36,394 bases of DNA from Planctomicrobium sp. Its GTDB lineage: Bacteria > Planctomycetota > Planctomycetia > Planctomycetales > Planctomycetaceae. The position numbers and the translations under genes were made by a program. The notes below the pieces were generated by a model that did not search any database, was not told the DNA's origin, and worked only from the letters and a program-made list of their open reading frames with translations. Positions 1,920 through 36,389 of this stretch are shown here, piece by piece (within the stretch, counting starts at the first letter, position 1; the number at the start of each line of letters is the position of its first letter). The DNA lies in contig DAOUPA010000006.1 of assembly GCA_030626405.1 (NCBI GenBank), forward strand, positions 1-36,394, given 5' to 3'.

Positions 1920-4607
1920 TTACTTTGTAACACTTTGCGAAACCACTTTGGCTTTTGCATCGATGCGGTTTTGCAGAGTTTCCATCGTTTCCTTTAGTGC
2001 GTATTCCAGATAAACATCCTGATCGTAAATCAACGATTCCACAGCAATATCGAGGGCAGCTTGATTATCAAAAAAACTCAAAGCTCGCACAGCTTCCAGG
2101 CGAACACGCGGGTGTTCATCGTGGATCGCAGTTTGAATTTTTCCGAGCGGTTCCTCGACTCGATTCTGCCAGTAGCAAAGAACACGCACTGCTGCCGCAC
2201 GTGCGCGTGCATCTTTTGAAGCAAGAATTCGATCCAACAGTCCAACATCAATTGCATCGTGATGTTGCTTGACCCAAAGCAATTCGAGCAACAAGTGCTG
2301 GTCCGCTTCGCTTTCACTTTTCGAGGCTGCGATGGCATTATCGACGGCAGCGATCACTTCGCTTTTGTCTCGTGCTCCGAGTTCTCTTCGTGCCTGGAAG
2401 CGAGTGCGGTCTTCGTAAATTTTCAACAATGCCACCAAGTCATCCGTTGACTGAAGTGCTGGCTTAGAAGGCTTGAGCAAGTCCTTGCCTTTGTACGTGA
2501 TTTTCCAAATGCGGCCGTGCGATTTGTCTCGGTTAGGATCTCGTACATTGTGCTGCATGTGACCGACCAGAGGATTGAACCAGTCGAGGACATACAACGC
2601 ACCATCGGGGCCAAACTGCAAATCGACCGGGCGGAAGTTTGGGTCGGAAGATCGGAGCAGCGGTTCGACTGGCTCGGCAAAGAACCCTGAACCTTCATCT
2701 TTGAATCGATACTGCAACACTCCTTGGAAACCGATGTCGTTATTCAACAAATAGTTCCCTTGCATTTCTTCCGGGAAGTGACGACTGGAAACGATTTCAC
2801 AACCGCAAGTCGGTCGCCACTGCTTGACAAGGAATTGTTTGAGGCCTGGATGCTTGCGAGGATGGTCGAGGTCACCAGAGAATGCGGCTCCGACATAGTT
2901 TGCACCGCCTGAGGCATCAGCAACGAAGTTTTGCCCCCATTTATCGAAGCAGTGTCCCCACGGGTTGGCGAAGTTATAGGAAACAAAAACGTCCAGCCGT
3001 TCTGAGCGTGGCTCGTATCGAAACACAGCGGCGTTCGCAACTTGTTCGAGACCGTTCGGAGTTTCCATTTGCGAGTGATGGAATGTTCCTTCCTGGAAAT
3101 ACAACTCCCCGCCCGGTCCGAGTTCGAAGGCACTGATCGAGTGATGAGAATCAGCAGAATCAAAACCGTGCAAACGCAATTGATATTCGTCGGCAACGTC
3201 GTCGCCATCTGTATCTTTAATGAACATCAGGTTCGGTTGTTGGGCGACGTACGCTCCGCCATTTGCGAGTTCAATTCCAGTAGGAACATGCAACCCGCGC
3301 GCGAAGATCTTTTCAGAATCGGCTTTTCCATCCCCATTTGTATCTTCAAGAATCAAAATTTTATCATCGACCGGAACGCCGGGGAGATACATCGGGTAAG
3401 ATGGCATGGTCGTTAGGTACAATCGGCCTTTGCCATCGAACGTAAACTGAACTGGGTTTTCGAGATTGGGGAAATCTTCTTCGGAAGCCCATAAGCTGAT
3501 TTCGAAACCTTCTGAAAGAGTAAACGACTCCGCCGCTTCCTCTGGCGGAGTGACATAAACTTCGTTTTTGAAATTCGTTTGAATTTCTGCAAAGTTACCG
3601 GTTCCAGAATCATTAATTTTCTTGGGGACAGATTCCCCTTGAGCAACATTCCAGATGCGCTCGTCACGGACAGCGATCATCTTGCGCAGCTTTTCGAATT
3701 CAGCCGGGAAATTCACGACACCAAAAGGTTCTTTGCGACCGCCGTAAATGTAGAAGCCATTCACGGCACGGTAGTCGTAAAAGAATTGCAGGTTTTTCTC
3801 TGCCACTTCTGCGTGGAGTTTTTTTGTGTTGATCTTCGAGTCGGTGGCTTTCCCGAAGAGTCGGTGATCAAGAATCCTTGCGAGTTTCTGGTAGCCTGTT
3901 TCATCAAGATGAATGCCGTTGATTGTGAGCGGCTCTTCGGTTTCGGCGAACAACTTTTTGGTAGGCGTGAAGAGATCAACGAACCGAACGCTTTTCTTCT
4001 TTGCGGCACGTTCGATGGCAGCGGTATAGAGAGCAAGGTTGGCGTTGTTGTCGGTGCCAGCGGAAATCCCGCGACTGGTGACATCTTCACTCGCAATCGG
4101 TGAGACGAGGACCAGTTGAAATTGTCCGCTGGCTTCTCCCTCTTTGTCCTGAAGGATCGGTTCGTACGATCCTCGCTTGTAACTTTTGCTGGGGTATTTC
4201 AATGCACGCAAGTCATCGACAAATTTGCCCAATCGCTCTTCAAACGCAGCGACTCCTGATTCTCCGGCGAAGGACTCATTGTAGCCGAACATTGCTAGAA
4301 CGAGGTTGGGCTGATGGTCGACAAGTGTGTGCCCATGGTCCTGGAAATCTTGTGAACGAAGGCGTGAACCAATCGTATCTCCAGACCAACCCAGGTTGCG
4401 GACGACCAGTTTTTTCTGAGGAAAACGGCTGTGCAGCAGGGTCTCCCAGTGGTTGAAATACTGCATTCGCTCGGCAAGTGTGTTTCCTAGAATGATGACT
4501 TTATCACTCGCTTGAACAGTCACATTGTCCTGCGAAGTCGCTGGCTGACGTAGTGTCAAAACAACGAGAAATGCGAGAAGAAATTGCGATGTTTTACTTT
4601 TTGTCAT
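1920..4607 (-). CDS. Secreted fusion: SGNH/GDSL-like domain + PVC-type dehydrogenase beta-propeller + HEAT repeats
   Basis: An 895-residue protein; start set at the ATG at 4607 because it opens a signal peptide (MTKSKTSQFLLAFLVVLTLR...ATSQ). The frame is open back to 4673 but that would bury the signal. Residues ~35-255 resemble an SGNH/GDSL hydrolase: block II NLGWSGDT, block III FGYNES, block V NGIHLDETGY. Block I reads ILGNTLAER where active enzymes have GDS, so activity is doubtful. Residues ~365-710 match the planctomycete 'putative membrane-bound dehydrogenase' beta-propeller (LENPVQFTFDGKGRLYL, FARGLHVPTGIELANGG, PVDLQFGPDGALYVLDW), with Asp-rich, Ca-like loops DTNGDGKAD and DTDGDDVAD. 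Residues ~725-890 look like HEAT repeats. The C-terminal CxxCH haem motif common in relatives is absent. It probably acts outside the cytoplasm, perhaps on carbohydrate; substrate unknown. Confidence 0.8.
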   Translation of the reverse strand: MTKSKTSQFLLAFLVVLTLRQPATSQDNVTVQASDKVIILGNTLAERMQYFNHWETLLHSRFPQKKLVVRNLGWSGDTIGSRLRSQDFQDHGHTLVDHQPNLVLAMFGYNESFAGESGVAAFEERLGKFVDDLRALKYPSKSYKRGSYEPILQDKEGEASGQFQLVLVSPIASEDVTSRGISAGTDNNANLALYTAAIERAAKKKSVRFVDLFTPTKKLFAETEEPLTINGIHLDETGYQKLARILDHRLFGKATDSKINTKKLHAEVAEKNLQFFYDYRAVNGFYIYGGRKEPFGVVNFPAEFEKLRKMIAVRDERIWNVAQGESVPKKINDSGTGNFAEIQTNFKNEVYVTPPEEAAESFTLSEGFEISLWASEEDFPNLENPVQFTFDGKGRLYLTTMPSYPMYLPGVPVDDKILILEDTNGDGKADSEKIFARGLHVPTGIELANGGAYVAQQPNLMFIKDTDGDDVADEYQLRLHGFDSADSHHSISAFELGPGGELYFQEGTFHHSQMETPNGLEQVANAAVFRYEPRSERLDVFVSYNFANPWGHCFDKWGQNFVADASGGANYVGAAFSGDLDHPRKHPGLKQFLVKQWRPTCGCEIVSSRHFPEEMQGNYLLNNDIGFQGVLQYRFKDEGSGFFAEPVEPLLRSSDPNFRPVDLQFGPDGALYVLDWFNPLVGHMQHNVRDPNRDKSHGRIWKITYKGKDLLKPSKPALQSTDDLVALLKIYEDRTRFQARRELGARDKSEVIAAVDNAIAASKSESEADQHLLLELLWVKQHHDAIDVGLLDRILASKDARARAAAVRVLCYWQNRVEEPLGKIQTAIHDEHPRVRLEAVRALSFFDNQAALDIAVESLIYDQDVYLEYALKETMETLQNRIDAKAKVVSQSVTK

Positions 4608-4899
4608 GTTTTTCTCTGTGATTCCGAAATCTTTTACCTGTCGATTCGAATAAAAGGCAGGCTGGATTTTCAATATTTCATGTATTCAATACTGGCGTCT
4701 TGCGGTACGATTGTAAACTGACCACCTCTATCAGAGATGGAGTTTGAATCGTGGCTTCAGGGAAGAGTGCCAGGCGCCTCACATGATAGTTCAGAAAGCA
4801 AAATGTATTTTTGTGCGAGAGTGGAATGACTTTAGAACATCAACAATCGGTTGACAGACAAAGGAACGGCGAGAGCGAATCGCGTACGGTGAGAGTGAA
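4608..4899. other. Divergent intergenic region
   Basis: This 292-bp gap separates the minus-strand fusion gene from the plus-strand small membrane protein, so it must hold promoters for both. It contains an imperfect hairpin (CCACCTCT / AGAGATGG, 4722-4740, one mismatch). I cannot assign a convincing -35/-10 pair. No small ORF of merit was found. Confidence 0.4.
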
Positions 4900-5517: not shown

Positions 5518-8500
5518 TTAAAATCCGACCGGTTTGTTACCTGATCGAGTGCGTTTTGGAGTTGCAGGCCTGTCATCGATAGTCTGTGGGCCAATTTTCG
5601 AAATTCTCGCTCCAATCGATTTGCCGTCATCAGCCCAAACGGCGGCCTGGCAGCTTCCGGAGACAATAAAATCCTTGATGTCCAGATGGTCGATGTCTTC
5701 GATTTCACGAGACATCACGACTGCACGAGTTCCATCGAGAAGGTCGTAAATTCGGTGGCTTCCCCAAAAAGAGCTCCAGGCCGTTTTGAACCCACCAATT
5801 GGTCCTTTTGCAGTGACCGAAATGCCAGTCGGGATTTTGTAGTTGTATCCACATGACGACTCCCACCAGTCAATCGTTTCGCGGATTTTATCCGCAGATT
5901 CGCCACGAATAATTGACGCTTGTTGAGATGATTTCGGGGGTGAAGCGAACAAGCAGTTGTTGGCAAATGAGGTGATCGGTGCGTTTGAACCTTTGCTATA
6001 AAGCGCTGCTTTGTTCTGACTAAACGTACATCGATTGAGCGAGAGAAACCCTGGGTTTTTATTCGCCGAGACGGTAAGAGAATCTGACCCGGAAGCGAAA
6101 ATGACGTTGCTCAGGTCCAGGGACTGATGGGTGGCGTCCCATTCAATCAATGGACCGGAACCAGAAATCATTGAATTCGCGATGGAGACAACGTTTGGAC
6201 GTTTCGCAGGCCCAAGTGTGATCATGCTTGCATTGACAGGAGCATCGAGCGGTTGCGAAATTTGAGTCTGAATTAAATTGATGACTGCCCCATTTTTTGA
6301 CTCGAGGAACAATGCCGTCACTTTCTCGGCGTTCGGTTTTCGGATTTCAAATCGCCCCTGTTCGATAGTGAACTCTCCTCCATCAATGACAAACATGGTC
6401 GTGAATGATTGATTGTCAGCAGGTTCGATTCTTAGTGGGTTTCCTTTGGCTTGCTCAAATTTCAATCGCAGTTTTCGGTTTTTTAGAACGATTGGCGGAA
6501 TCCTTCGAATTCCAGAACCAAAGCATATCACTGTTGTTCCATTCGGGCATTTGTTACTTGCTAGAAAACTTGGTAGACCATTTCCTTGAACTAAATCAAA
6601 CCGGACAGTTTTGCCTGACCAACGAGATTGACTTTGCGAACTTTTTCGTTGAAGAATTTTGTTAAGTGTCAATTGACGCTTGATCGCTGCTGCATCAACG
6701 GTAGCGACCTTCGCTGGGTCTGCACCAAGCAAAGATCGTTCGCCGACTCCGGGGTGAGCGATATCTTCCAGAGCTTGGCTGGTACTAATGGAAGTGATAA
6801 GAGACGCTTGATTCAGTTGGTTTTCGACGTTTTCCAGGTGGATGAGATCATCGCTGGGTAGGGTCTCTCCCCAAAAGTTCAGCCATTGAGCTGAATCTGA
6901 GACAGTCTGTTTCGTTTCGTTTTTGTCAACAACCGTTGTCAGTTGAGTAATGTTCACGAAGCGTACATGCTGCATTTTAAGATTGATGTTTTGTCTGCTC
7001 GCCTCTGCCTCCGTTTTTTGATTGTCACCAAGCAGTGATAATTGAATTGCAGAGGTGTTCTTCGATGGAATGCCAATCAGTAGAGAGCGATTCAAAGTGA
7101 ATTCGCAGGTGCTCTGACTTTCCTTGTTTTCGTTTTTGCTGAGATGCAAATTTGACTGACCACCGATCAACGTGCAATTTGAGATTTGGAAACTCTGGTG
7201 AATGTTGGTCGGTCCGAGCGAAAGACGAAAGAGATCGTTTTCGCGTGATGCGAAAAAGGAGTTCTCGCAGTAAATGTTGCACGGGACATTGACTGCGTTG
7301 ATCGCAGAAATGTTTTCTCCGCGTATGAGGCAGTTTTCGATATGAATTCGATTTCCGTTCGCAGATTTACCGCCTATTTCAATGCATGTGGCAGGCGAAC
7401 TATCAATCGTCGTAAACGTACAGTTGCGCAAAACGAGGTCGGTGCCATTCAGCTTCAGAAATTCAATCTCTCCTTCTGTTGAATTGCTGATAACGAAGTG
7501 CAAACCCACGAGTTCCAACGTTCCACCTGTGACATTGAGCCATGAGTGGAGTCCTTTTTTGATACCGTTTTCATCAAGGTGAAACGTCAAGATTGGTTTC
7601 GAGCGAGTCGCTCGGATTGTGAGTCGATCTTTGAGTTTCAGTTCGGTCGAATGAATTTCCTGGGATGCCACTGCAGAGAGGTCGATCACCGTTGAGCGTG
7701 ATTGAACCGCTGCCAACGATTCTTCCAAGCTTTGAAATGTGTCGCGCCCCCTCTTGCCTCTCTGTACTTCGAACTGATCTTGTTGTCGTTGATTTGGGCG
7801 ATTGTTTTCAATCACAACCCATCTGGGAGGGACGATTTTTCCGTCGGATTGGGAAGCGACCTGCTTGCGATTCGAACGGCCCGTGTTTTGACTTTTCTGT
7901 TGAGCTTCTTTTTCCGACAGGCTTTTCTTAGTAAGGGATCCATCTTGAGCATCAATTGTTGACTTAGATTTCTGACCGGCGTTTTCTCCATACGGGTTAA
8001 TGTCTGGAGCGATTGAATCAACAGAAAATTTAGAAATTCCCCACCAGATGAAGCCAATGGTGAGAATGAAAATGACAATAAATAATCCCGCCTTAGCCCA
8101 ATCGATGTCGATCTTGGAGTCGGAACTCAGGTCAACAGGTGAAAGCGAGGATTGTTTTTGAGGCTCCTTTTTGGGCGGTGCAGCTTTGCCAGTTTTCGTT
8201 TTTTGTCTCGATTCGAATGGTCTCTCTTTTTTAGACTTCGAGGGTATGTTTTTTTTCTTTGTTTGCTTGTCGCTGCGAGTTTCTTTGAGATTCGGTTTTT
8301 GAACGAGTCGTGGGGACTGCTGCGGAACATCAGTGGCAAACTCAGGCTCGTTGAGTTCTTCGGCAGTCCTCGCTCGTTTTAACGGTTTTCGAATCACCGG
8401 TCGGTCAGCAGATTGATTCTCCTCGATTGCTTCGTCGTTCTTCTGTGCTTCGGTCTTGGGGCGTTGTTTCTGCTTCTTTTCTGGTTTTCGTCGCTGTGTT

Positions 8501-9552
8501 TTTTTAGAGAGGCTGGGAGTTCTTGATGGGGGTTTTTCTGTTTTAGTCTTCCCCAGGAGTTTGGATTGTGATTCATCCTGAACTTCAATCTCGACCGAAT
8601 CGTTACTGGCAACGAACGCAGTTCCGTCTTCCTCCTCCGCAAGAAGCGTTGCGAGGAGATGACTGGAATCGTCAGCGAGGTTTGATGAATTATTCAACTC
8701 ATCTAAGAGCTCCTGAGGGTTTTGATATCGATCCTGTTTTTTCTTCGCCATCATGCGGTGCATGATGGCGACAATGCTATCAGTCACACGATTGTTCGCC
8801 TCGCGCGGATCTGGAATTGGGTTTTCTGCATGCGCGCGAAGCTTGTTGGTCATGTCTCCTTCTGGAAACGGTGGCGATCCCGTCAACATGTGATACCACG
8901 TGCATCCCAGCGAATAGATGTCGCTACGGATGTCAGCGTGCTTACTGTGAGCTGCCTGCTCTGGAGACATGTAATCCACTGTGCCGACAGTCGTACCGAC
9001 CCGAGTGATTGTTGTGTCGAGAGTTTCGTCAACCGATCTCGCCAGTCCCAGGTCCGCGAGCTTCGCGGTCCCGTCTTTGGCGATCATGATATTGGCGGGT
9101 TTGATATCTCGATGCACGAGTTTCTTTGAGTGAGCATGCTTCAGCGCTTCCGCCATCTGCTTGATGATGCCAATCGACCGCTTGATCGGAATCGTTTCGC
9201 GTTTTCTCAACCACTCTTGAAGATCAATCCCGTCAATATACTCAAGAGCAATGTACAGGTATCCATCTGCCTGACCTGCATCGTAAACTCCCACAATGTT
9301 TTTATGAGTGAGTTGTGCTGACGCGCGCGCTTCGGATTGAAATCGACGTACAAGAATTGGGTTTTCGGCACGATCCTTTGGAAGAACTTTTAGAGCAACG
9401 GTTCGTTTTAAGAGAGTATCTTCTGCGAGATAGACCGTACCCATCCCGCCGGCCCCGATTCTACGAAGAATCCGGTACTTGCCGAGCTGTTTCAGATCAG
9501 CTTGGACATCACCTGTCAATTTCGAATTGGGCGGCTGTAAATCGGAACTCAT
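5518..9552 (-). CDS. Receptor-like Ser/Thr protein kinase with extracytoplasmic parallel beta-helix domains
   Basis: A 1344-residue protein with a Hanks-type kinase domain at ~26-287: glycine loop IGAGGMGTVY, Lys55 (VALKV), Glu74, catalytic loop HRDIKPAN (Asp149), metal-binding DLG at 167-169 in place of DFG, and an APE-equivalent SPEQA. All catalytic residues are present, so it should be active. Residues 290-480 are a Lys/Glu/Pro-rich cytoplasmic linker. One transmembrane helix lies at 488-507 (AGLFIVIFILTIGFIWW). The outer part, 511-1344, contains two blocks (about 605-870 and 975-1205) of short repeats with an N-C-x-hydrophobic signature (NCTFTTI, NCLIRG, NCTLIGG, NSMISGSG, NCLFASP), as in pectate-lyase/NosD right-handed beta-helices. 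I infer a sensor that binds a polysaccharide or other wall ligand. Start ATG at 9552 lacks a Shine-Dalgarno. Confidence 0.9.
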   Translation of the reverse strand: MSSDLQPPNSKLTGDVQADLKQLGKYRILRRIGAGGMGTVYLAEDTLLKRTVALKVLPKDRAENPILVRRFQSEARASAQLTHKNIVGVYDAGQADGYLYIALEYIDGIDLQEWLRKRETIPIKRSIGIIKQMAEALKHAHSKKLVHRDIKPANIMIAKDGTAKLADLGLARSVDETLDTTITRVGTTVGTVDYMSPEQAAHSKHADIRSDIYSLGCTWYHMLTGSPPFPEGDMTNKLRAHAENPIPDPREANNRVTDSIVAIMHRMMAKKKQDRYQNPQELLDELNNSSNLADDSSHLLATLLAEEEDGTAFVASNDSVEIEVQDESQSKLLGKTKTEKPPSRTPSLSKKTQRRKPEKKQKQRPKTEAQKNDEAIEENQSADRPVIRKPLKRARTAEELNEPEFATDVPQQSPRLVQKPNLKETRSDKQTKKKNIPSKSKKERPFESRQKTKTGKAAPPKKEPQKQSSLSPVDLSSDSKIDIDWAKAGLFIVIFILTIGFIWWGISKFSVDSIAPDINPYGENAGQKSKSTIDAQDGSLTKKSLSEKEAQQKSQNTGRSNRKQVASQSDGKIVPPRWVVIENNRPNQRQQDQFEVQRGKRGRDTFQSLEESLAAVQSRSTVIDLSAVASQEIHSTELKLKDRLTIRATRSKPILTFHLDENGIKKGLHSWLNVTGGTLELVGLHFVISNSTEGEIEFLKLNGTDLVLRNCTFTTIDSSPATCIEIGGKSANGNRIHIENCLIRGENISAINAVNVPCNIYCENSFFASRENDLFRLSLGPTNIHQSFQISNCTLIGGQSNLHLSKNENKESQSTCEFTLNRSLLIGIPSKNTSAIQLSLLGDNQKTEAEASRQNINLKMQHVRFVNITQLTTVVDKNETKQTVSDSAQWLNFWGETLPSDDLIHLENVENQLNQASLITSISTSQALEDIAHPGVGERSLLGADPAKVATVDAAAIKRQLTLNKILQRKSSQSQSRWSGKTVRFDLVQGNGLPSFLASNKCPNGTTVICFGSGIRRIPPIVLKNRKLRLKFEQAKGNPLRIEPADNQSFTTMFVIDGGEFTIEQGRFEIRKPNAEKVTALFLESKNGAVINLIQTQISQPLDAPVNASMITLGPAKRPNVVSIANSMISGSGPLIEWDATHQSLDLSNVIFASGSDSLTVSANKNPGFLSLNRCTFSQNKAALYSKGSNAPITSFANNCLFASPPKSSQQASIIRGESADKIRETIDWWESSCGYNYKIPTGISVTAKGPIGGFKTAWSSFWGSHRIYDLLDGTRAVVMSREIEDIDHLDIKDFIVSGSCQAAVWADDGKSIGARISKIGPQTIDDRPATPKRTRSGNKPVGF

Positions 9553-29798: not shown

Positions 29799-29922
29799 CG
29801 TCGTGGGTTGTTGACTCGAACTCGTTGAATTCCAGTCGAGGATCACTCTTTGCAGCATTAGTCGTGTTTTGAAGGATCACCATATTTGACGAGCACGACA
29901 GTGGAGTGCGGAGTTTGTATTG

Positions 29923-31134
29923 ATGGTCCTTCAATCGAGGCCTGATAAGACACTGATTATGTTCGAATATCAACCACGTCGCCATCCGCTGCAATCGTTC
30001 CAGTTCTGGTTCACTATTCTGGTCTGTGCTGTCGGTGTTTTTGTCTGGCGGTCGGGCGTTCTTACCCAAAATTCTCAAGCTGTTGTGATTACTCCCACCA
30101 TTGAGGAAGAGGACATGCCGCTTCCTCCTCAGGCTGAGGAGGAGTTCTCCACCGACGATTCGAGTTCAACGCTTGCGGACGTGACACTTGCTCCACTTCA
30201 ATCCGAGGAACCGTTCTCAGAACAGCGATCCACTGAAGATGCTCATTTTCCGAACGGCGAAACGATGAGTGATGATCAGCTGAAAACGGCAGATGGAGTG
30301 CATGATGGTGACCCGAACAACGAATCCCTGACAGTTCAACGGACAAGTCTTGAGTCACCGTCGGCCGATTCTTCAATTCAATCACCGAGCCTTGGTTTTG
30401 GGGAAGCATTGACTTCTCGCCAAGTGACTCCTCAAGCTCTCGACTTCACGGAGATTGATAGACAGATTGCTGTAGGTGACGATGTCGCAGCACTGAGGGC
30501 ACTCTCAACCTTGTACTGGCAGCACCCAGAGAAACGACGCCAACTCGCCACTCGTCTGGACCAACTCTCACGACGAGTATACTTTCAACAACTGCCGCAT
30601 TATGTGGATCCCTATGAGGTCCAGTTCGGGGATCGGATGGAAACGATTGCGAAAAAATATCAAGTCTCGTGGAACTATCTTGCAAAGATCAATCACGTCG
30701 ATCCGCAGAGAATTCGTGCAGGACAAAAACTAAAAGTGATTCAAGGGCCGTTCGATGTTGTCGTTGACTTAAGCGACTTTGAACTGACTGTTCACGCCCA
30801 CGGATATTTCGTCGTCCGGATGCCTGTCGGAATTGGTCAAGATGAATCCACTCCCATCGGGACCTTTAGAGTGACAGACAAAGTTGTCGATCCCATTTAT
30901 TATGGACCCGATGGTGTCATTAAAAACGATGATCCTGCGAATCCGCTCGGGGAACGCTGGCTTGCAATCAGCGATGCCGCCGGAACAGTTCAGGGGTATG
31001 GTTTGCACGGGACAATCGATCCGTCATCCATCGGGAAAGCAGAATCTCGCGGCTGCATTCGGTTGTACGATCAGGATGTTGCCGACCTCTATGACCTGCT
31101 GACGATTGGTTCGAAGGTCATCATTCGGCGTTAG
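29923..31134 (+). CDS. Membrane-anchored LysM and L,D-transpeptidase (YkuD) protein
   Basis: A 403-residue cell-wall enzyme. ATG 29923 has CGGAG about ten bases upstream; a later ATG at 29959 would remove 12 residues. One transmembrane segment lies at ~28-47 (FWFTILVCAVGVFVW). Residues 50-170 are an acidic Ser/Glu linker. LysM is at ~227-273 (YEVQFGDRMETIAKKYQVSW, INHVDPQRIRAGQKLKV). The YkuD catalytic domain is at ~277-402, with VVRMPVGIGQDESTPIGTF and the active-site motif HGT...IGKAESRGCIRL (His362, Cys378). It would form 3-3 cross-links or attach proteins to peptidoglycan, which planctomycetes are now known to have. Its 3' end overlaps the glycosyltransferase on the opposite strand by 14 bp. 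Confidence 0.94.
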   Translation: MVLQSRPDKTLIMFEYQPRRHPLQSFQFWFTILVCAVGVFVWRSGVLTQNSQAVVITPTIEEEDMPLPPQAEEEFSTDDSSSTLADVTLAPLQSEEPFSEQRSTEDAHFPNGETMSDDQLKTADGVHDGDPNNESLTVQRTSLESPSADSSIQSPSLGFGEALTSRQVTPQALDFTEIDRQIAVGDDVAALRALSTLYWQHPEKRRQLATRLDQLSRRVYFQQLPHYVDPYEVQFGDRMETIAKKYQVSWNYLAKINHVDPQRIRAGQKLKVIQGPFDVVVDLSDFELTVHAHGYFVVRMPVGIGQDESTPIGTFRVTDKVVDPIYYGPDGVIKNDDPANPLGERWLAISDAAGTVQGYGLHGTIDPSSIGKAESRGCIRLYDQDVADLYDLLTIGSKVIIRR

Positions 31135-32257
31135 AACATTTTTCGATGTCGTCATCCATCTTGTTAATGATCGAAGGCCACTCAAATCTTTGAGATAGTC
31201 GGACTGCTATTTCCTGACGACTCACGATTTGGGAACGATCATTCTGCTTCCAGTCAGCAAGTTGCTGCAAATTGCTGACAAGGTCTGCGGTTGTTCCATC
31301 GTACAGAAAATTTGCGTCCTTCTGGACTAACTCTGGATACGCAAGGCGATCCGGGAGCAATGGGATGCAGCCAGCGTTCATGGCTTCGATGATCGCGATG
31401 CCAAAAAATTCATGCACAGCCGTCGAGACCACCACATCCGACTGTCGCAAAATCTTTTGGTACTCTGCTCGCGATTCTGCATATCCCCAGTGGAAGATTT
31501 GGTCGGCGAATTCTGTCTTTGCGTTTTCAAAACAGACAGGTGACTGACGATAAGATTCCCCCAAAACCGAGAACCGAAAGTCCCCACCATTTTCCTGAAA
31601 GCGTTTGAGAGCGTCAAAGAACTGCTCAGGGTTTTTATCGTGTTCCCATCGACCGACCCAAACGATGCGAAGTGGATAGTCTGTTGGTTTTCCCGAAGGA
31701 CAGGCTTCGATACCAGGGGAATGGATTCGTGATTTCTCCTTTGCGATATTCAACATTTGATCCCAGCGTTGCTGGTCATCCTGCAAAAGCCTCGGCATTT
31801 TTTTGAGAGCGTTTGAAGCATGGTCGAAAATATTTTCGCGATGAAAGTTTGAATTGAACCAGACTTGATCGGCGGCGAACAATGAAATGAAATTCGTGAA
31901 GGCGAAGTGGAAGTCCCGTTTTGCTTCGTCGCTTCGTCGTTGTGTTGGATACTCAAATTGGTTTTCATGGAAATAGAGAACTGTCGGAATCGACCGCATT
32001 TCATCAGGCAGAAGCCCTCGCAATTCCGCCAGATTGAGCATGTCGGTCGTGAAGATCACGTCTGGTCGTTGCCCGTTGTCTGCAATGATTTCACGAATTT
32101 GTAAAGCGAACGAAGTTGCGGCGTGTCTCATTCGCCATTTCCAATGAGTCCCTGGTAGCGTCAACACCGTGAACTCATGCCGACTGTTCCTCTGCCAACC
32201 TTCAAGAAATGCTTGATGACTTCCAGTATGAAACGGGTTGAGCGCGAGAATGTGCAT
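31121..32257 (-). CDS. Glycosyltransferase resembling tRNA-queuosine alpha-mannosyltransferase (DUF3524)
   Basis: A 378-residue GT-B enzyme. The N-terminal ~165 residues carry the DUF3524 signature: MHILALNPFHTGSHQAFLEG, GTHWKWRMRHAA, TTDMLNLAELRGLLP and VLYFHENQFEYP. In animals this domain (GTDC1/QTMAN) mannosylates queuosine-34 of tRNA-Asp. The C-terminal part is a GT4-type lobe (RIVWVGRWEHDKNPEQFFDAL, HEFFGIAIIEAMNAGCIPLLP). I choose ATG 32257, the family's N-terminus; a GTG at 32281 would add eight residues. Neither has a Shine-Dalgarno. The family assignment is fairly sure; that the substrate is queuosine tRNA in this bacterium is inference. It ends within the L,D-transpeptidase 3' end (14-bp overlap). 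The gene upstream is another glycosyltransferase beyond a repeat. Confidence 0.82.
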   Translation of the reverse strand: MHILALNPFHTGSHQAFLEGWQRNSRHEFTVLTLPGTHWKWRMRHAATSFALQIREIIADNGQRPDVIFTTDMLNLAELRGLLPDEMRSIPTVLYFHENQFEYPTQRRSDEAKRDFHFAFTNFISLFAADQVWFNSNFHRENIFDHASNALKKMPRLLQDDQQRWDQMLNIAKEKSRIHSPGIEACPSGKPTDYPLRIVWVGRWEHDKNPEQFFDALKRFQENGGDFRFSVLGESYRQSPVCFENAKTEFADQIFHWGYAESRAEYQKILRQSDVVVSTAVHEFFGIAIIEAMNAGCIPLLPDRLAYPELVQKDANFLYDGTTADLVSNLQQLADWKQNDRSQIVSRQEIAVRLSQRFEWPSIINKMDDDIEKCSNAE

Positions 32258-32367
32258 GAACTTTGGTTCGTAACTGTCCACAGGTTGACGCTATTTGAAG
32301 CAACTTTGAACGGGTGTGAGCAGAATTGTGAATGCGTTGGTGGTGTTTAGGAAAAAGGAAAAAGATG

Positions 32368-32553: not shown

Positions 32554-33669
32554 TTACACAACGCTCTCCCATGTCGTGGCGAGAAGTTGTGCGTTCTGCT
32601 GGATGTTGAATTTTTCAATGATGACTCTTCGAGCGTTTCTTGCAAGTTGGTCCCCCAAACTCGGTGACTTCACAAGTTGCTTGATCGCACCCGCAAGTAG
32701 CTCAGGTTCTGCTGGCGGGATAAGCAATGCACTCTCTCCATCTCGGAAAATCTCTGGTGATCCACCAACGTTCGTTGCGATAATCGGAACTCCGCTCGCC
32801 GCCGCTTCGAGCAGCACTCTTCCGAGCGGTTCCTGGCGAGCCGGGTGAATGACCAAGTCAACTTCGTTTAGAAGCGAAGCAATATCGGATCGATATCCCA
32901 GCCGATGCAGCCGCTCCGGCATTCCCACCGCCTCGAAAACTTCACCGATGGCTGCTTCGAATTCAATCGTCTCTTGCTTTGTGGAATGCCTCTCACCGAT
33001 CAATAGGTAATGCAAGTTCGGGCACTCTTCTTTGAGAAGGACGGCTGCTTGAGCGAGATCGTTTTGAGCTTTGCGTAAGCAAATTTGCCCAATCGTCGCC
33101 GAAAGGATTGCGTCTTCGGGAAGGCCGAATTCGTCTCGCAGGGAGCTCGTCACCGTTCGTGGCTGGAATTGATCACAGTCGATCCCGTTGTAAACCGCGA
33201 CAATCTTCTCTGCGTCAACACCTTGCTGAATATGAAACTCACGCGTGGCAAGAGAAACTGCGATGAGTAGACGATGCTGGTTCAGATCGTTCACAGCCGC
33301 ATTGCTGAGCGACATGATATCTCGAATGTGGCTCGTCGTCGGGACACTCAATTGATCAGCAACGGCTCCCAGGTGTCGTCCCATTGCTAAGCTGTTCGCA
33401 TGGACAATATCGAGGCTGTGGGTTTGAATACAAGCTTCTAACCGCTCAGCAAGTTCTTCTTTCGGGAGGCGTTGTCCATCGGGATTTCGAAGAGTGAACT
33501 CTTGCACTGGCAACGAACGACGTTTGAATTCACCGTAGAGAGGTCCCTCAGTTGGGGCTATTGCGACGAATTCACAATGTTGCGATTGCAACTGGTCGAC
33601 AGCCGCTAATATCGAATGCTCACCTCCATTGAGGGTTGAATACTCGAAGAGCAAACCGATACGAATCAC
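32554..33669 (-). CDS. GT4 family glycosyltransferase
   Basis: A 371-residue GT-B enzyme, presumably retaining and using a nucleotide sugar. The N-lobe opens MIRIGLLFEYSTLNGGEHSI, with the Gly-Gly loop of the acceptor side; IVHANSLAMGRHLGAV follows. The C-lobe has IGQICLRKAQNDLAQA and the EX7E motif at Glu280 and Glu288 (QEPLGRVLLEAAASGVPIIATNVGG). It is probably involved in surface polysaccharide or glycolipid synthesis; acceptor and sugar are unknown. The start is GTG 33669, only 11 bp after the glnD stop, so the two are probably co-transcribed. No Shine-Dalgarno is visible. A palindromic repeat follows its stop. Confidence 0.9.
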   Translation of the reverse strand: MIRIGLLFEYSTLNGGEHSILAAVDQLQSQHCEFVAIAPTEGPLYGEFKRRSLPVQEFTLRNPDGQRLPKEELAERLEACIQTHSLDIVHANSLAMGRHLGAVADQLSVPTTSHIRDIMSLSNAAVNDLNQHRLLIAVSLATREFHIQQGVDAEKIVAVYNGIDCDQFQPRTVTSSLRDEFGLPEDAILSATIGQICLRKAQNDLAQAAVLLKEECPNLHYLLIGERHSTKQETIEFEAAIGEVFEAVGMPERLHRLGYRSDIASLLNEVDLVIHPARQEPLGRVLLEAAASGVPIIATNVGGSPEIFRDGESALLIPPAEPELLAGAIKQLVKSPSLGDQLARNARRVIIEKFNIQQNAQLLATTWESVV

Positions 33670-33680
33670 AGAACAACCGA

Positions 33681-36389
33681 TTAATTGGAGAAGCTTGAAT
33701 CGCGAGCAAAAAGCAGATGATCTTCACTATGGAAATCGTCAAGCGCCTGTTGCAAACCGACTCGAATCTGTTCGAGTCGCTCTCCGCCTCGCACTCGTGT
33801 TCCATCCTGTTCCTGAAGGTAGAAGACATCGATCACCTGATCGAGATGCGTCGAAATTTTTGCCATGTCAATCGAGACGTTCATGTCGAACAAGGCTTTT
33901 GTCAGGATGTAGAGCAACCCTGGTCGGTCCATGGCAAAGACATCAAAGATCGTTCGGGTGTCCGATGAGTCGTTATCGATTTGAACTCGCGGAGGTAAAT
34001 TCGTGGAAGACTCTGCAGGCGGAGGAGAACCGAATCGACTGTTTTTCTGAAAGAGTTGCTCGACTGATATCTCTCCCTTCAACACTGAACGAAGTGCGGT
34101 CGCAATTTCATCGATCCGTTCTTGAGGCGGTTCGCAATCGTAGTCGGAATCTAAAACTCGATAGCTGTCGATGATGACTCCGTCTGATGTCGTATTGATT
34201 TCTGCCGAAAGGATACTCAGTCGTTTTGCAGACAAGACCCCAGTCATTTTATGAAAACAGCCAGATTGAAATTCCGTGTTGCCTGTCACGACCCGGTATT
34301 CCGTCGACTTTGTTTCAGGATCCCAACTGGCGATGACTTCGACATTTTTCTTGCCAAGTTCCTGAATCACCTGAAGGTCGTCTGCAATTTGTCCAGGGGG
34401 TGTACAGGTGAGATAGTATGCAGAAAAACCGATGAGTTGTTGACCAACCCAGTCGAGAGACTTTGAATCACCATCACGCTCGCTCAGGCAAGTTGTGACA
34501 GCTTTTTTCGTGTCCTTGATTCGCTGCTGTTCGTGGTAGGCTTGTTTTTTTCCGCTCAAAGTTTCGATGCAGCGGTCAAAAAACTCTGTTAGCAAGTTGG
34601 CTTTCCAATTCGTCCATGTGCCTGGACCGACTGCGGAAACATCCGCCACGGTGAGTGTGTAGAGCATCCGTAGGACATCGGGTGAGCCAACTTGGCGACT
34701 GAATTTCACAATGAGGTCAGGGTCAGTGAAGTCTCGACGAAACGCGATGTCTGCCATCACGAGGTGTAATTTGACGAGCAACCAGATTTGTTCAATTTGA
34801 TAGTTTGGAAGAGACAAGCGTTGCCCGACTTCAAGGGCAATGTCCGCACCGATTTCGCTATGGTCGCCTCCCATGCCTTTCCCGATATCGTGCAGCAAGA
34901 CTGCTAGATGCAACACTTCTTTGTGTCGAATTTCCTGGTATGCCGCACCGATTGGCCCGTCGTCGTTTTCGAAACTGGTCACCTTCTCGACGGCGCGGAG
35001 TGTGTGTTCGTCGACGGTGAAGTGATGATACTGATTGAACTGCAAAAGATTACGAATGTGGGTCACTTGCGGGATCACAATATCCAGCAGCCCGGTTTGG
35101 AACATGCTTCGCAAAGTCGGCCCCAAAGCCGATGTGCATTTGAAGATTTCAATGAAGGCACTCGAAGCTTTAGTGGAAATTGTCGGCGGAGGTTCGGCGA
35201 GACTCTTCTTGATCGTCTCAGCAACCTTAGGAGAGGGAATCACCCCATACAACGCGGCGGCTTTGTAGAGTTGCAACATCGACTCAGGGGACTCACAGAC
35301 CTCCTTCAGATAGCGGTCGGCAACTTCAATTCGATCTGCTCCGACGTAAAACATCCCTTCAGCCCGGTGTCCGATCACGACATCCCGAGTCTTCTCGGCG
35401 AAAGACCTCGGTCGTTCCATGGCGACAAATCGTCGCGTGATCGTCGCCAACTCTGAACTGTGATGGAAAAACTCCTGCATAAACTGTTCGACGGGACGTT
35501 GACGATCATTCCCAGGGAACTCTCGTTCTTCGGCAATGCGAAGTTGCTCGTCTTTCGTTAAGCGGTCTTGCGCCCCTTCATCATTAAGATGCAAATCGAT
35601 TCGAAGTTTCGTGAGAAATTCCCAGGCTCGCTTCAATGTTTTCGCATCTTCTTTCGTGAGCGCTCCTTTGAGTCGGAGGGAGTCGATATCTTTAACGCCA
35701 TAACGGGTATATCCGACCCAGCGGATTAAATGCAGGTCGCGCAAGCCTCCAGAGGAAGACTTGATGTCCGGTTCCAATTCCTGAGCAGGCGGGCCATATT
35801 CCGACCAACCTTCTTCTCTTGCTTCAAGACAATCTTCGATAAATTTTCGTCGTCGGGAAAACACGACACGCCGTTTAAACTGCGTGACAAGCCGATTGTG
35901 CATCCCTTCATTTCCCCACAGGTATCGAGCTTCAATGAGAGGAGTTGCAATCTGTGGGTCTTGTCGTGCCAATGAAATACATGTGGCAATATCGCGAGTC
36001 GAACTTCCCAGTTTGATCTTCGAGTCCCAGCAGTTTTGAACAAACGCATCAACAAACTGACTGAATTCCGGCGAAACGTTTTTTTCGTGAAGGAACAATA
36101 AGTCGATATCCGAGTACGGCGCCATGTCGCCGCGACCTGTGCCACCAATCGCAATAATGGCTCCCTGCTGTGGGATCAGTTTGGCATCATCTTCTGAAAA
36201 CTGAGCGATGGTTTCTTCAACCAGCGAACTTAAGAAGTCATCGAATCCATAACAAATCGCAGATGCGATCTGAATGCCAGGCGTGCCATTTTCAAAGAGT
36301 ACCTTCGCTTTCGTGCGAATTGCGTCAATCTGAGATTTACGCCGCGAGATGATATCGCTGAACTGATTGGATTGTTCGGTTGTAGACAT
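33681..36389 (-). CDS. glnD: Bifunctional uridylyltransferase/uridylyl-removing enzyme GlnD
   Basis: A 902-residue nitrogen sensor that uridylylates PII when glutamine is low and removes UMP when glutamine is high. Domains in order: nucleotidyltransferase with GGTGRGDMAPYSDID (82-96) and the family segment DIKSSSGGLRDLH (208-220); HD hydrolase with HTLRAVEKV (462-470) and HLAVLLHDIGKGMGGDHSE (494-512, His500-Asp501); two ACT domains for glutamine at ~698-775 and ~812-885 (FDVFAMDRPGLLYILTKAL). All catalytic motifs are intact and the length is normal (850-940). Start ATG 36389 lies five bases from the window edge, so its Shine-Dalgarno cannot be judged. The GT4 gene follows after 11 bp. No PII or glutamine synthetase gene is in the window. 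Confidence 0.96.
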   Translation of the reverse strand: MSTTEQSNQFSDIISRRKSQIDAIRTKAKVLFENGTPGIQIASAICYGFDDFLSSLVEETIAQFSEDDAKLIPQQGAIIAIGGTGRGDMAPYSDIDLLFLHEKNVSPEFSQFVDAFVQNCWDSKIKLGSSTRDIATCISLARQDPQIATPLIEARYLWGNEGMHNRLVTQFKRRVVFSRRRKFIEDCLEAREEGWSEYGPPAQELEPDIKSSSGGLRDLHLIRWVGYTRYGVKDIDSLRLKGALTKEDAKTLKRAWEFLTKLRIDLHLNDEGAQDRLTKDEQLRIAEEREFPGNDRQRPVEQFMQEFFHHSSELATITRRFVAMERPRSFAEKTRDVVIGHRAEGMFYVGADRIEVADRYLKEVCESPESMLQLYKAAALYGVIPSPKVAETIKKSLAEPPPTISTKASSAFIEIFKCTSALGPTLRSMFQTGLLDIVIPQVTHIRNLLQFNQYHHFTVDEHTLRAVEKVTSFENDDGPIGAAYQEIRHKEVLHLAVLLHDIGKGMGGDHSEIGADIALEVGQRLSLPNYQIEQIWLLVKLHLVMADIAFRRDFTDPDLIVKFSRQVGSPDVLRMLYTLTVADVSAVGPGTWTNWKANLLTEFFDRCIETLSGKKQAYHEQQRIKDTKKAVTTCLSERDGDSKSLDWVGQQLIGFSAYYLTCTPPGQIADDLQVIQELGKKNVEVIASWDPETKSTEYRVVTGNTEFQSGCFHKMTGVLSAKRLSILSAEINTTSDGVIIDSYRVLDSDYDCEPPQERIDEIATALRSVLKGEISVEQLFQKNSRFGSPPPAESSTNLPPRVQIDNDSSDTRTIFDVFAMDRPGLLYILTKALFDMNVSIDMAKISTHLDQVIDVFYLQEQDGTRVRGGERLEQIRVGLQQALDDFHSEDHLLFARDSSFSN

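Follow-up and report, generated by a model that had tools for sequence, protein, structure and literature searches.

GluQRS acts on tRNA-Asp, on the diol of queuosine (Q), and Zhao et al. 2023 is said to be the founding paper on QTMAN, the tRNA-queuosine alpha-mannosyltransferase of animals. In the available part of PMC12548931, GluQRS is listed for GluQ34 in E. coli. The characterised members of the QTMAN family use mannose and the animal enzyme acts on Q-tRNA, according to the available part of PMC12518689, where the purpose of queuosine sugars is given as unknown. The modified nucleoside manQ has also been described on tRNA-Tyr in a mosquito (PMC11705514, available in part). No report of bacterial hexosyl-Q or of a working bacterial QTMAN was found in the open-access literature searched, as far as the available text extends. 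Here a bacterial member of this family, encoded by Planctomicrobium sp., was analysed together with its relatives in Planctomycetota and other phyla.

Family membership of the window gene

In the window (the whole 36,394-nucleotide stretch of contig DAOUPA010000006.1 analysed here), a QTMAN-family glycosyltransferase CDS lies at 31121..32257 on the minus strand and encodes 378 aa from an ATG at 32257. The open reading frame extends to a GTG at 32281 (31121..32281, minus strand), giving a 386-aa reading that is 8 residues longer, and the ATG is the start that matches those of most relatives in the alignment. The G+C content of the gene is 0.478 versus 0.50 for the window. The N-terminal QTMAN_N domain (PF12038; 31781..32251, minus strand) scored 174.5 bits in the genome search and 172.6 bits (8.2e-51; residues 11–167 of the 386-aa reading) in the Pfam search, against a cut-off of 25, and is followed by a GT4 C-terminal domain (Glycos_transf_1; 31277..31669, minus strand; 5.4e-17; residues 205–335 of the 386-aa reading). 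The latter contains the EX7E motif, EFFGIAIIE (31385..31411, minus strand; residues 283–291 of the 378-aa protein).

The sequence-only reading had recognised a strong DUF3524 signature, DUF3524 being presumably the former name of PF12038, and both of its elements are present, GSHQAFLEGW from residue 12 and HENQFEYP from residue 97 of the 378-aa protein, along with HWKWRMRH. Among 47 aligned sequences from the phylum sample, the window's protein included, S21, H22, W47, R50, H105, E106, Q108, Y111, P112 and E299 (386-aa numbering) were invariant, so that the second Glu of the EX7E motif is kept in 47/47, and its first Glu, E291, is kept in 46/47. The gene was the sole PF12038 match at E <= 0.001 across the 7.13 Mb assembly, none of 14 control genomes gave a PF12038 match, and a scan of viral contigs with the single protein gave no match. 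Ten NCBIfam families of polysaccharide, thiol and selenosugar GT4 enzymes were matched, and the protein falls below the curated cut-off of each (best 36.3 bits versus 400).

An AlphaFold2 model built from a 26-sequence alignment (A1) had a mean pLDDT of 93.3 and a pTM of 0.91, and resembled retaining GT-B enzymes of family GT4 along its whole length (Foldseek, VIA-align). The structures compared were sucrose-phosphate synthase (6kih, Z 33.5), methylmannose polysaccharide mannosyltransferase (7qsg, Z 32.1), MshA (3c4q, Z 32.0), PimB' with GDP-Man (3oka, Z 28.1) and PimA with GDP-Man (2gej, Z 26.8). The window protein alone matched no PDB sequence at E <= 0.001, and a profile search reached PimA, PimB' and 7qsg mainly in their C-terminal part. 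A retaining mechanism would fit the alpha-linked mannose of manQ (PMC12518689, available in part); the sugar itself is not fixed by the predicted fold. Membership of the window gene in the QTMAN (PF12038) family is thus well supported by domain, EX7E motif and GT-B fold, which together back the homology to tRNA-queuosine mannosyltransferase proposed from the sequence. Pfam's PF12038 family already includes bacteria, the window gene being a further bacterial member, and it is the Pfam model that points to a putative orthology with animal QTMAN.

Gene neighbourhood

Upstream of the QTMAN-family gene and on the same (minus) strand are an ordinary GT4 glycosyltransferase gene (32554..33669; Glycos_transf_1, 4.1e-29 in Pfam) and glnD, encoding PII uridylyltransferase (33681..36389, minus strand; TIGR01693, 618.6 bits, cut-off 519.4). 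On the other side, a convergent LysM/L,D-transpeptidase (YkuD) gene (29920..31134, plus strand) overlaps it by 14 nt at the 3' ends. The order glnD, GT4, QTMAN-family gene with the convergent L,D-transpeptidase gene is common to four same-genus genomes, including G167, although the QTMAN-family gene itself is broken there. Elsewhere in the window, a minus-strand gene for a GDSL lipase, DUF7133 and HEAT protein (1920-4673) and a minus-strand gene for a 1344-aa protein kinase with no further Pfam domain at E <= 1e-5 (5518-9552) were observed.

Neighbouring genes were clustered over 130 stretches plus the window, several of these being one locus fetched twice. Among the clustered stretches the gene order was not conserved outside the genus, and no neighbour family besides the PF12038 family recurred in more than seven. 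Neither a conserved context with Q genes nor a conserved polysaccharide cluster was found beside the QTMAN-family gene in this set, and queA adjoined it in none of the stretches. In a single stretch, from Roseimaritima sediminicola (L155; 1692-2783, 5974-7116), tgt lies about 3.2 kb away in divergent orientation. The sequence-only reading had held that the neighbours do not decide the target, and the immediate neighbours are indeed uninformative here; gene context is neither for nor against a queuosine role.

Several recurring neighbours were also recorded. A gene for a GmhA-like SIS-domain protein, below the family cut-offs, abuts the QTMAN-family gene in two stretches (L052, 5327-6007; L158, 5275-5982). 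A U32 gene resembling TrhP adjoins in two others (L076 and L109), where it scored 294.8 and 310.1 bits, below the TrhP cut-off of 534, and these cases were judged too few. LpxD-like genes near the QTMAN-family gene in seven genomes, of which the one scanned was identified as LpxD by Pfam, were set aside as convergent by coordinates in the six adjoining cases.

Queuosine genes in the same genome

The sequence-only reading had made its proposal depend on the presence of tgt and queA, and the genome contains queA (G000:C414:533-1570; 394 bits, cut-off 267.45), queG (G000:C715:25373-26368; 354 bits, cut-off 200) and a tgt that is truncated by the end of its 3372-base contig (G000:C533:2641-3369). 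The tgt fragment scored 306.5 bits, or 306.8 with its frame neighbours, versus a cut-off of 306.75, and its partial product shares 86% identity with a same-genus Tgt over 245 residues. In queuine-salvaging TGTs the GGLAVG of the E. coli enzyme is typically replaced by GG[LS][AS]G (PMC11570991, available in part). The pocket of this Tgt reads GGLSVGE, so that the window's organism does not have the salvage layout of a GG[LS][AS]G pocket with no queA. Given this pocket and the Q genes, the organism should make Q de novo, and preQ1 is the base that its Tgt would probably insert, judged from the pocket. No GluQRS over cut-off was found in this genome (best 7.3e-56), in an assembly given as 92.4% complete.

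Distribution in Planctomycetota and comparison with GluQRS

PF12038 was present in 50/244 genomes of a sample regarded as Planctomycetota, with a patchy distribution that extended to close relatives. All 50 carriers had tgt over cut-off and 48 had a queA match. Over cut-off, queG was found in 42 carriers and queH in seven, all seven being without queG, so that the last Q step (queG or queH) was covered in 49/50, all but G029 (90% complete). The two carriers with tgt and queG and no queA match, G067 (L055, L086) and G189 (L071, L089), belong to one planctomycetal family and are 99% and 97% complete, respectively, which implies an unrecognised QueA or an assembly gap in both. Since a queA match was found in 234/244 genomes, queA has no discriminating power in this phylum, and Chloroflexota were therefore used (see below).

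In some carriers the gene was broken: G112 has it in two frames, G194 retains a remnant interrupted by two stops, and the halves of the G167 copy lie on different contigs (L036, 5956-6489; L037, 5485-6596), where an open reading frame past the break, part of which reads N, is presumably transposase-like. The QTMAN-family gene is an accessory function.

Two features of planctomycetal Tgts were noted in passing. In G067, G202, G149 and G189 (L086–L089), some 20 to 45 extra residues are inserted directly after the DDC motif in the active-site region. The non-carrier planctomycete G109 (L184) has no queA match and a Gly-type pocket, GGSLG, and may salvage queuine.

If the QTMAN-family enzyme and GluQRS cap the same diol, a tendency towards mutual exclusion is expected. 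GluQRS was found in 14/50 carriers and 93/194 non-carriers (p = 0.016), and within the window's own family in 0/11 carriers and 5/10 non-carriers (p = 0.012), counts that depend on the rule used and would shift under another, with statistics that ignore kinship. Applied to the matches listed (at least about 224 bits), the rule accepted scores of at least 262 bits or open frames no longer than 460 aa; GltX also matches the GluQRS model, and 23 listed genomes called GltX-like were counted as without GluQRS. The trend is as predicted, and coexistence is common.

Distribution beyond Planctomycetota

A scan of genome contigs gave at least 568 loci encoding the PF12038 family. The titles among the best 80 of these at least 568 loci included Planctomycetota, Zixibacteria, Acidobacteria, Deltaproteobacteria, Desulfobacterales, Bacteroidota, Balneolaceae, Chloroflexota, Nitrospiraceae, Polyangiaceae and Lentisphaeria, among others. 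From these 80, 35 carriers were examined, all except L109, L123 and L155 having been picked as non-Planctomycetota by title or being unnamed. Their genomes, for which completeness was not stated in the source, contained tgt in 32 cases, queA in 31 and either gene in 34; G253 had neither, and G264 and G272 had queA without tgt.

A sample of 301 Chloroflexota genomes centred on G275 (the genome of L166) contained PF12038 in 32, a queA match in 185 and tgt in 239. The family was carried by 0/62 genomes without tgt and by 32/239 with tgt (Fisher p = 7e-4). Among genomes having tgt and lacking a queA match, 21/56 were carriers, as were 11/183 of those with both. Within the queA-less genomes, tgt was present in 21/21 carriers versus 35/95 non-carriers (Fisher p = 2e-8), and queA itself was negatively associated with carriage (11/32 carriers versus 174/269 others, p = 0.0017); the queA-less carriers form mostly one clade, so that the counts are not independent and all three of these p-values are too small. 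Two carriers, G476 and G539, had scores of about 55 bits with the full-length profile and fell far outside in the tree, and their exclusion left tgt in 30/30 and queA in 9/30. In a quick tree without bootstrap, 16 of the 20 queA-less Chloroflexota carriers included formed a single clade next to a Chloroflexaceae sequence, and the queA label needed five changes, of which starred branches force three.

In all, tgt accompanied the family in 50/50 carriers from Planctomycetota, 32/32 from Chloroflexota and 32/35 from mostly other phyla. This suggests that the bacterial family follows Q insertion (tgt) and not de novo synthesis (queA), the simplest account being a requirement of the enzyme for Q in tRNA, be it synthesised or salvaged. 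As acceptor, queuosine-tRNA is favoured over something unrelated by the joint occurrence with tgt in Chloroflexota, and the link to queuosine is well supported.

Tgt pockets were read among the matches listed; the Tgts of a further 20 queA-less Chloroflexota carriers from the sample of 301 genomes scored below these. Val occupied the pocket site in 12/12 Tgts read from queA-positive carriers. The six Tgts read from queA-less carriers had a Val pocket in G067, G189, G251 and G263 and a Gly pocket in the Chloroflexota G269 and G358, where the sequence GGSLG contains the Gly and fits GG[LS][AS]G inexactly. Among the Tgts read from queA-less non-carriers, Gly was found in 1/11 (G109). Absence of queA therefore fails as a general sign of salvage, as four of the six queA-less carriers have a Val-type Tgt. 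A salvage-type group is likely within Chloroflexota, where the queuine-type Gly is present in both Tgts read from queA-less carriers.

Proposed function and alternatives

In our best reading, to which we give a probability of about 0.7, the window gene encodes a bacterial QTMAN-family GT4 enzyme that glycosylates Q34 of tRNA, most likely with alpha-mannose from GDP-mannose. Tgt would insert a 7-deazaguanine (preQ1 in this organism) into tRNA, QueA and QueG would complete Q on the tRNA, and the QTMAN-family enzyme would then move a sugar onto the cyclopentenediol of Q34, where the cap would stand in place of the glutamate added by GluQRS in some other bacteria. We infer the sugar, the donor, the attacked hydroxyl, the target tRNA and the product of the window enzyme, with tRNA-Asp proposed by analogy. 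A version of this reading that we consider possible, though clearly less probable, keeps Q34 as the acceptor with another sugar (manno-heptose, glucose or galactose) or another tRNA (-Tyr, -His or -Asn) than in vertebrate QTMAN. UDP-, GDP- and ADP-sugars all serve as donors for GT4 enzymes with this fold, the mosquito manQ is on tRNA-Tyr (PMC11705514, available in part), and a gene for a GmhA-like sugar-phosphate isomerase, below cut-offs, adjoins in the two stretches mentioned above; these two are, however, too few to carry meaning, and the only characterised family members described in the available part of PMC12518689 use mannose.

It is doubtful that the protein is a GT4 enzyme of surface polysaccharide, lipid or small-molecule synthesis unrelated to tRNA, with QTMAN_N reflecting shared ancestry of the acceptor domain only. 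The high variability of GT4 acceptor specificity, the second GT4 gene adjoining in the genus and the patchiness of carriers among close relatives would all suit such an enzyme, but it reaches none of the NCBIfam cut-offs, no polysaccharide cluster is conserved alongside, and the lack of the family in all 62 Chloroflexota without tgt is not predicted for a surface enzyme. Action on free queuine, queuosine or a Q precursor, in salvage, storage or export, would account for the enrichment of carriers among those Chloroflexota that have tgt and lack a queA match (21/56 versus 11/183) and for the Gly type of the two Tgts read there. We regard it as very improbable, given that Q-tRNA is the substrate of the enzyme known from animals (PMC12518689, available in part) and that late Q genes occur in nearly all planctomycetal carriers (queA in 48/50, queG or queH in 49/50), so that salvage cannot be the common task.

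Glycosylation of Q34 in tRNA, our preferred reading, can be extended to the wider family. We lean slightly towards the view that a patchy, broad set of bacteria (Planctomycetota, Chloroflexota, Zixibacteria, Acidobacteriota, Bacteroidota and others) uses this enzyme to place a hexose on Q34, as an alternative to the glutamate of GluQRS, and that a Chloroflexota group pairs the family with a tgt that is at least sometimes queuine-type, without QueA, in the Tgt-plus-QTMAN layout of animals. The new finding is that tgt, and not queA, is what the family follows in bacteria, along with a group that is likely of the salvage type, and the link to tgt predicts which bacteria to examine for sugar-modified Q. 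If the reading is true, bacterial tRNA has a sugar-modified wobble base described, in the literature searched, from animals only, and the queA-less Chloroflexota would parallel animals in depending on salvaged queuine. Some carriers are cultivable and perhaps mutable, so that the purpose of queuosine sugars would become testable in a simple bacterial system.

Comparison with known systems

Among the GDP-mannose-dependent GT4 enzymes, PimA, PimB' and the mannosyltransferase 7qsg share the GT-B fold with the window protein along its entire length (Z 26.8 to 32.1), at 13 to 18% identity. GluQRS (YadB) makes glutamyl-Q34 and so modifies the same base as is predicted for the window enzyme, but it is a relative of aminoacyl-tRNA synthetases with no sequence relation to the window protein. 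With animal QTMAN (GTDC1) the window protein shares a QTMAN_N domain, in its own case far over the cut-off, followed by a GT4 domain. The animal enzyme needs Q in tRNA, a modification that the window's genome should make. The two differ in the source of this Q, as animals salvage queuine (PMC9406330, available in part) whereas the window's organism should make Q de novo.
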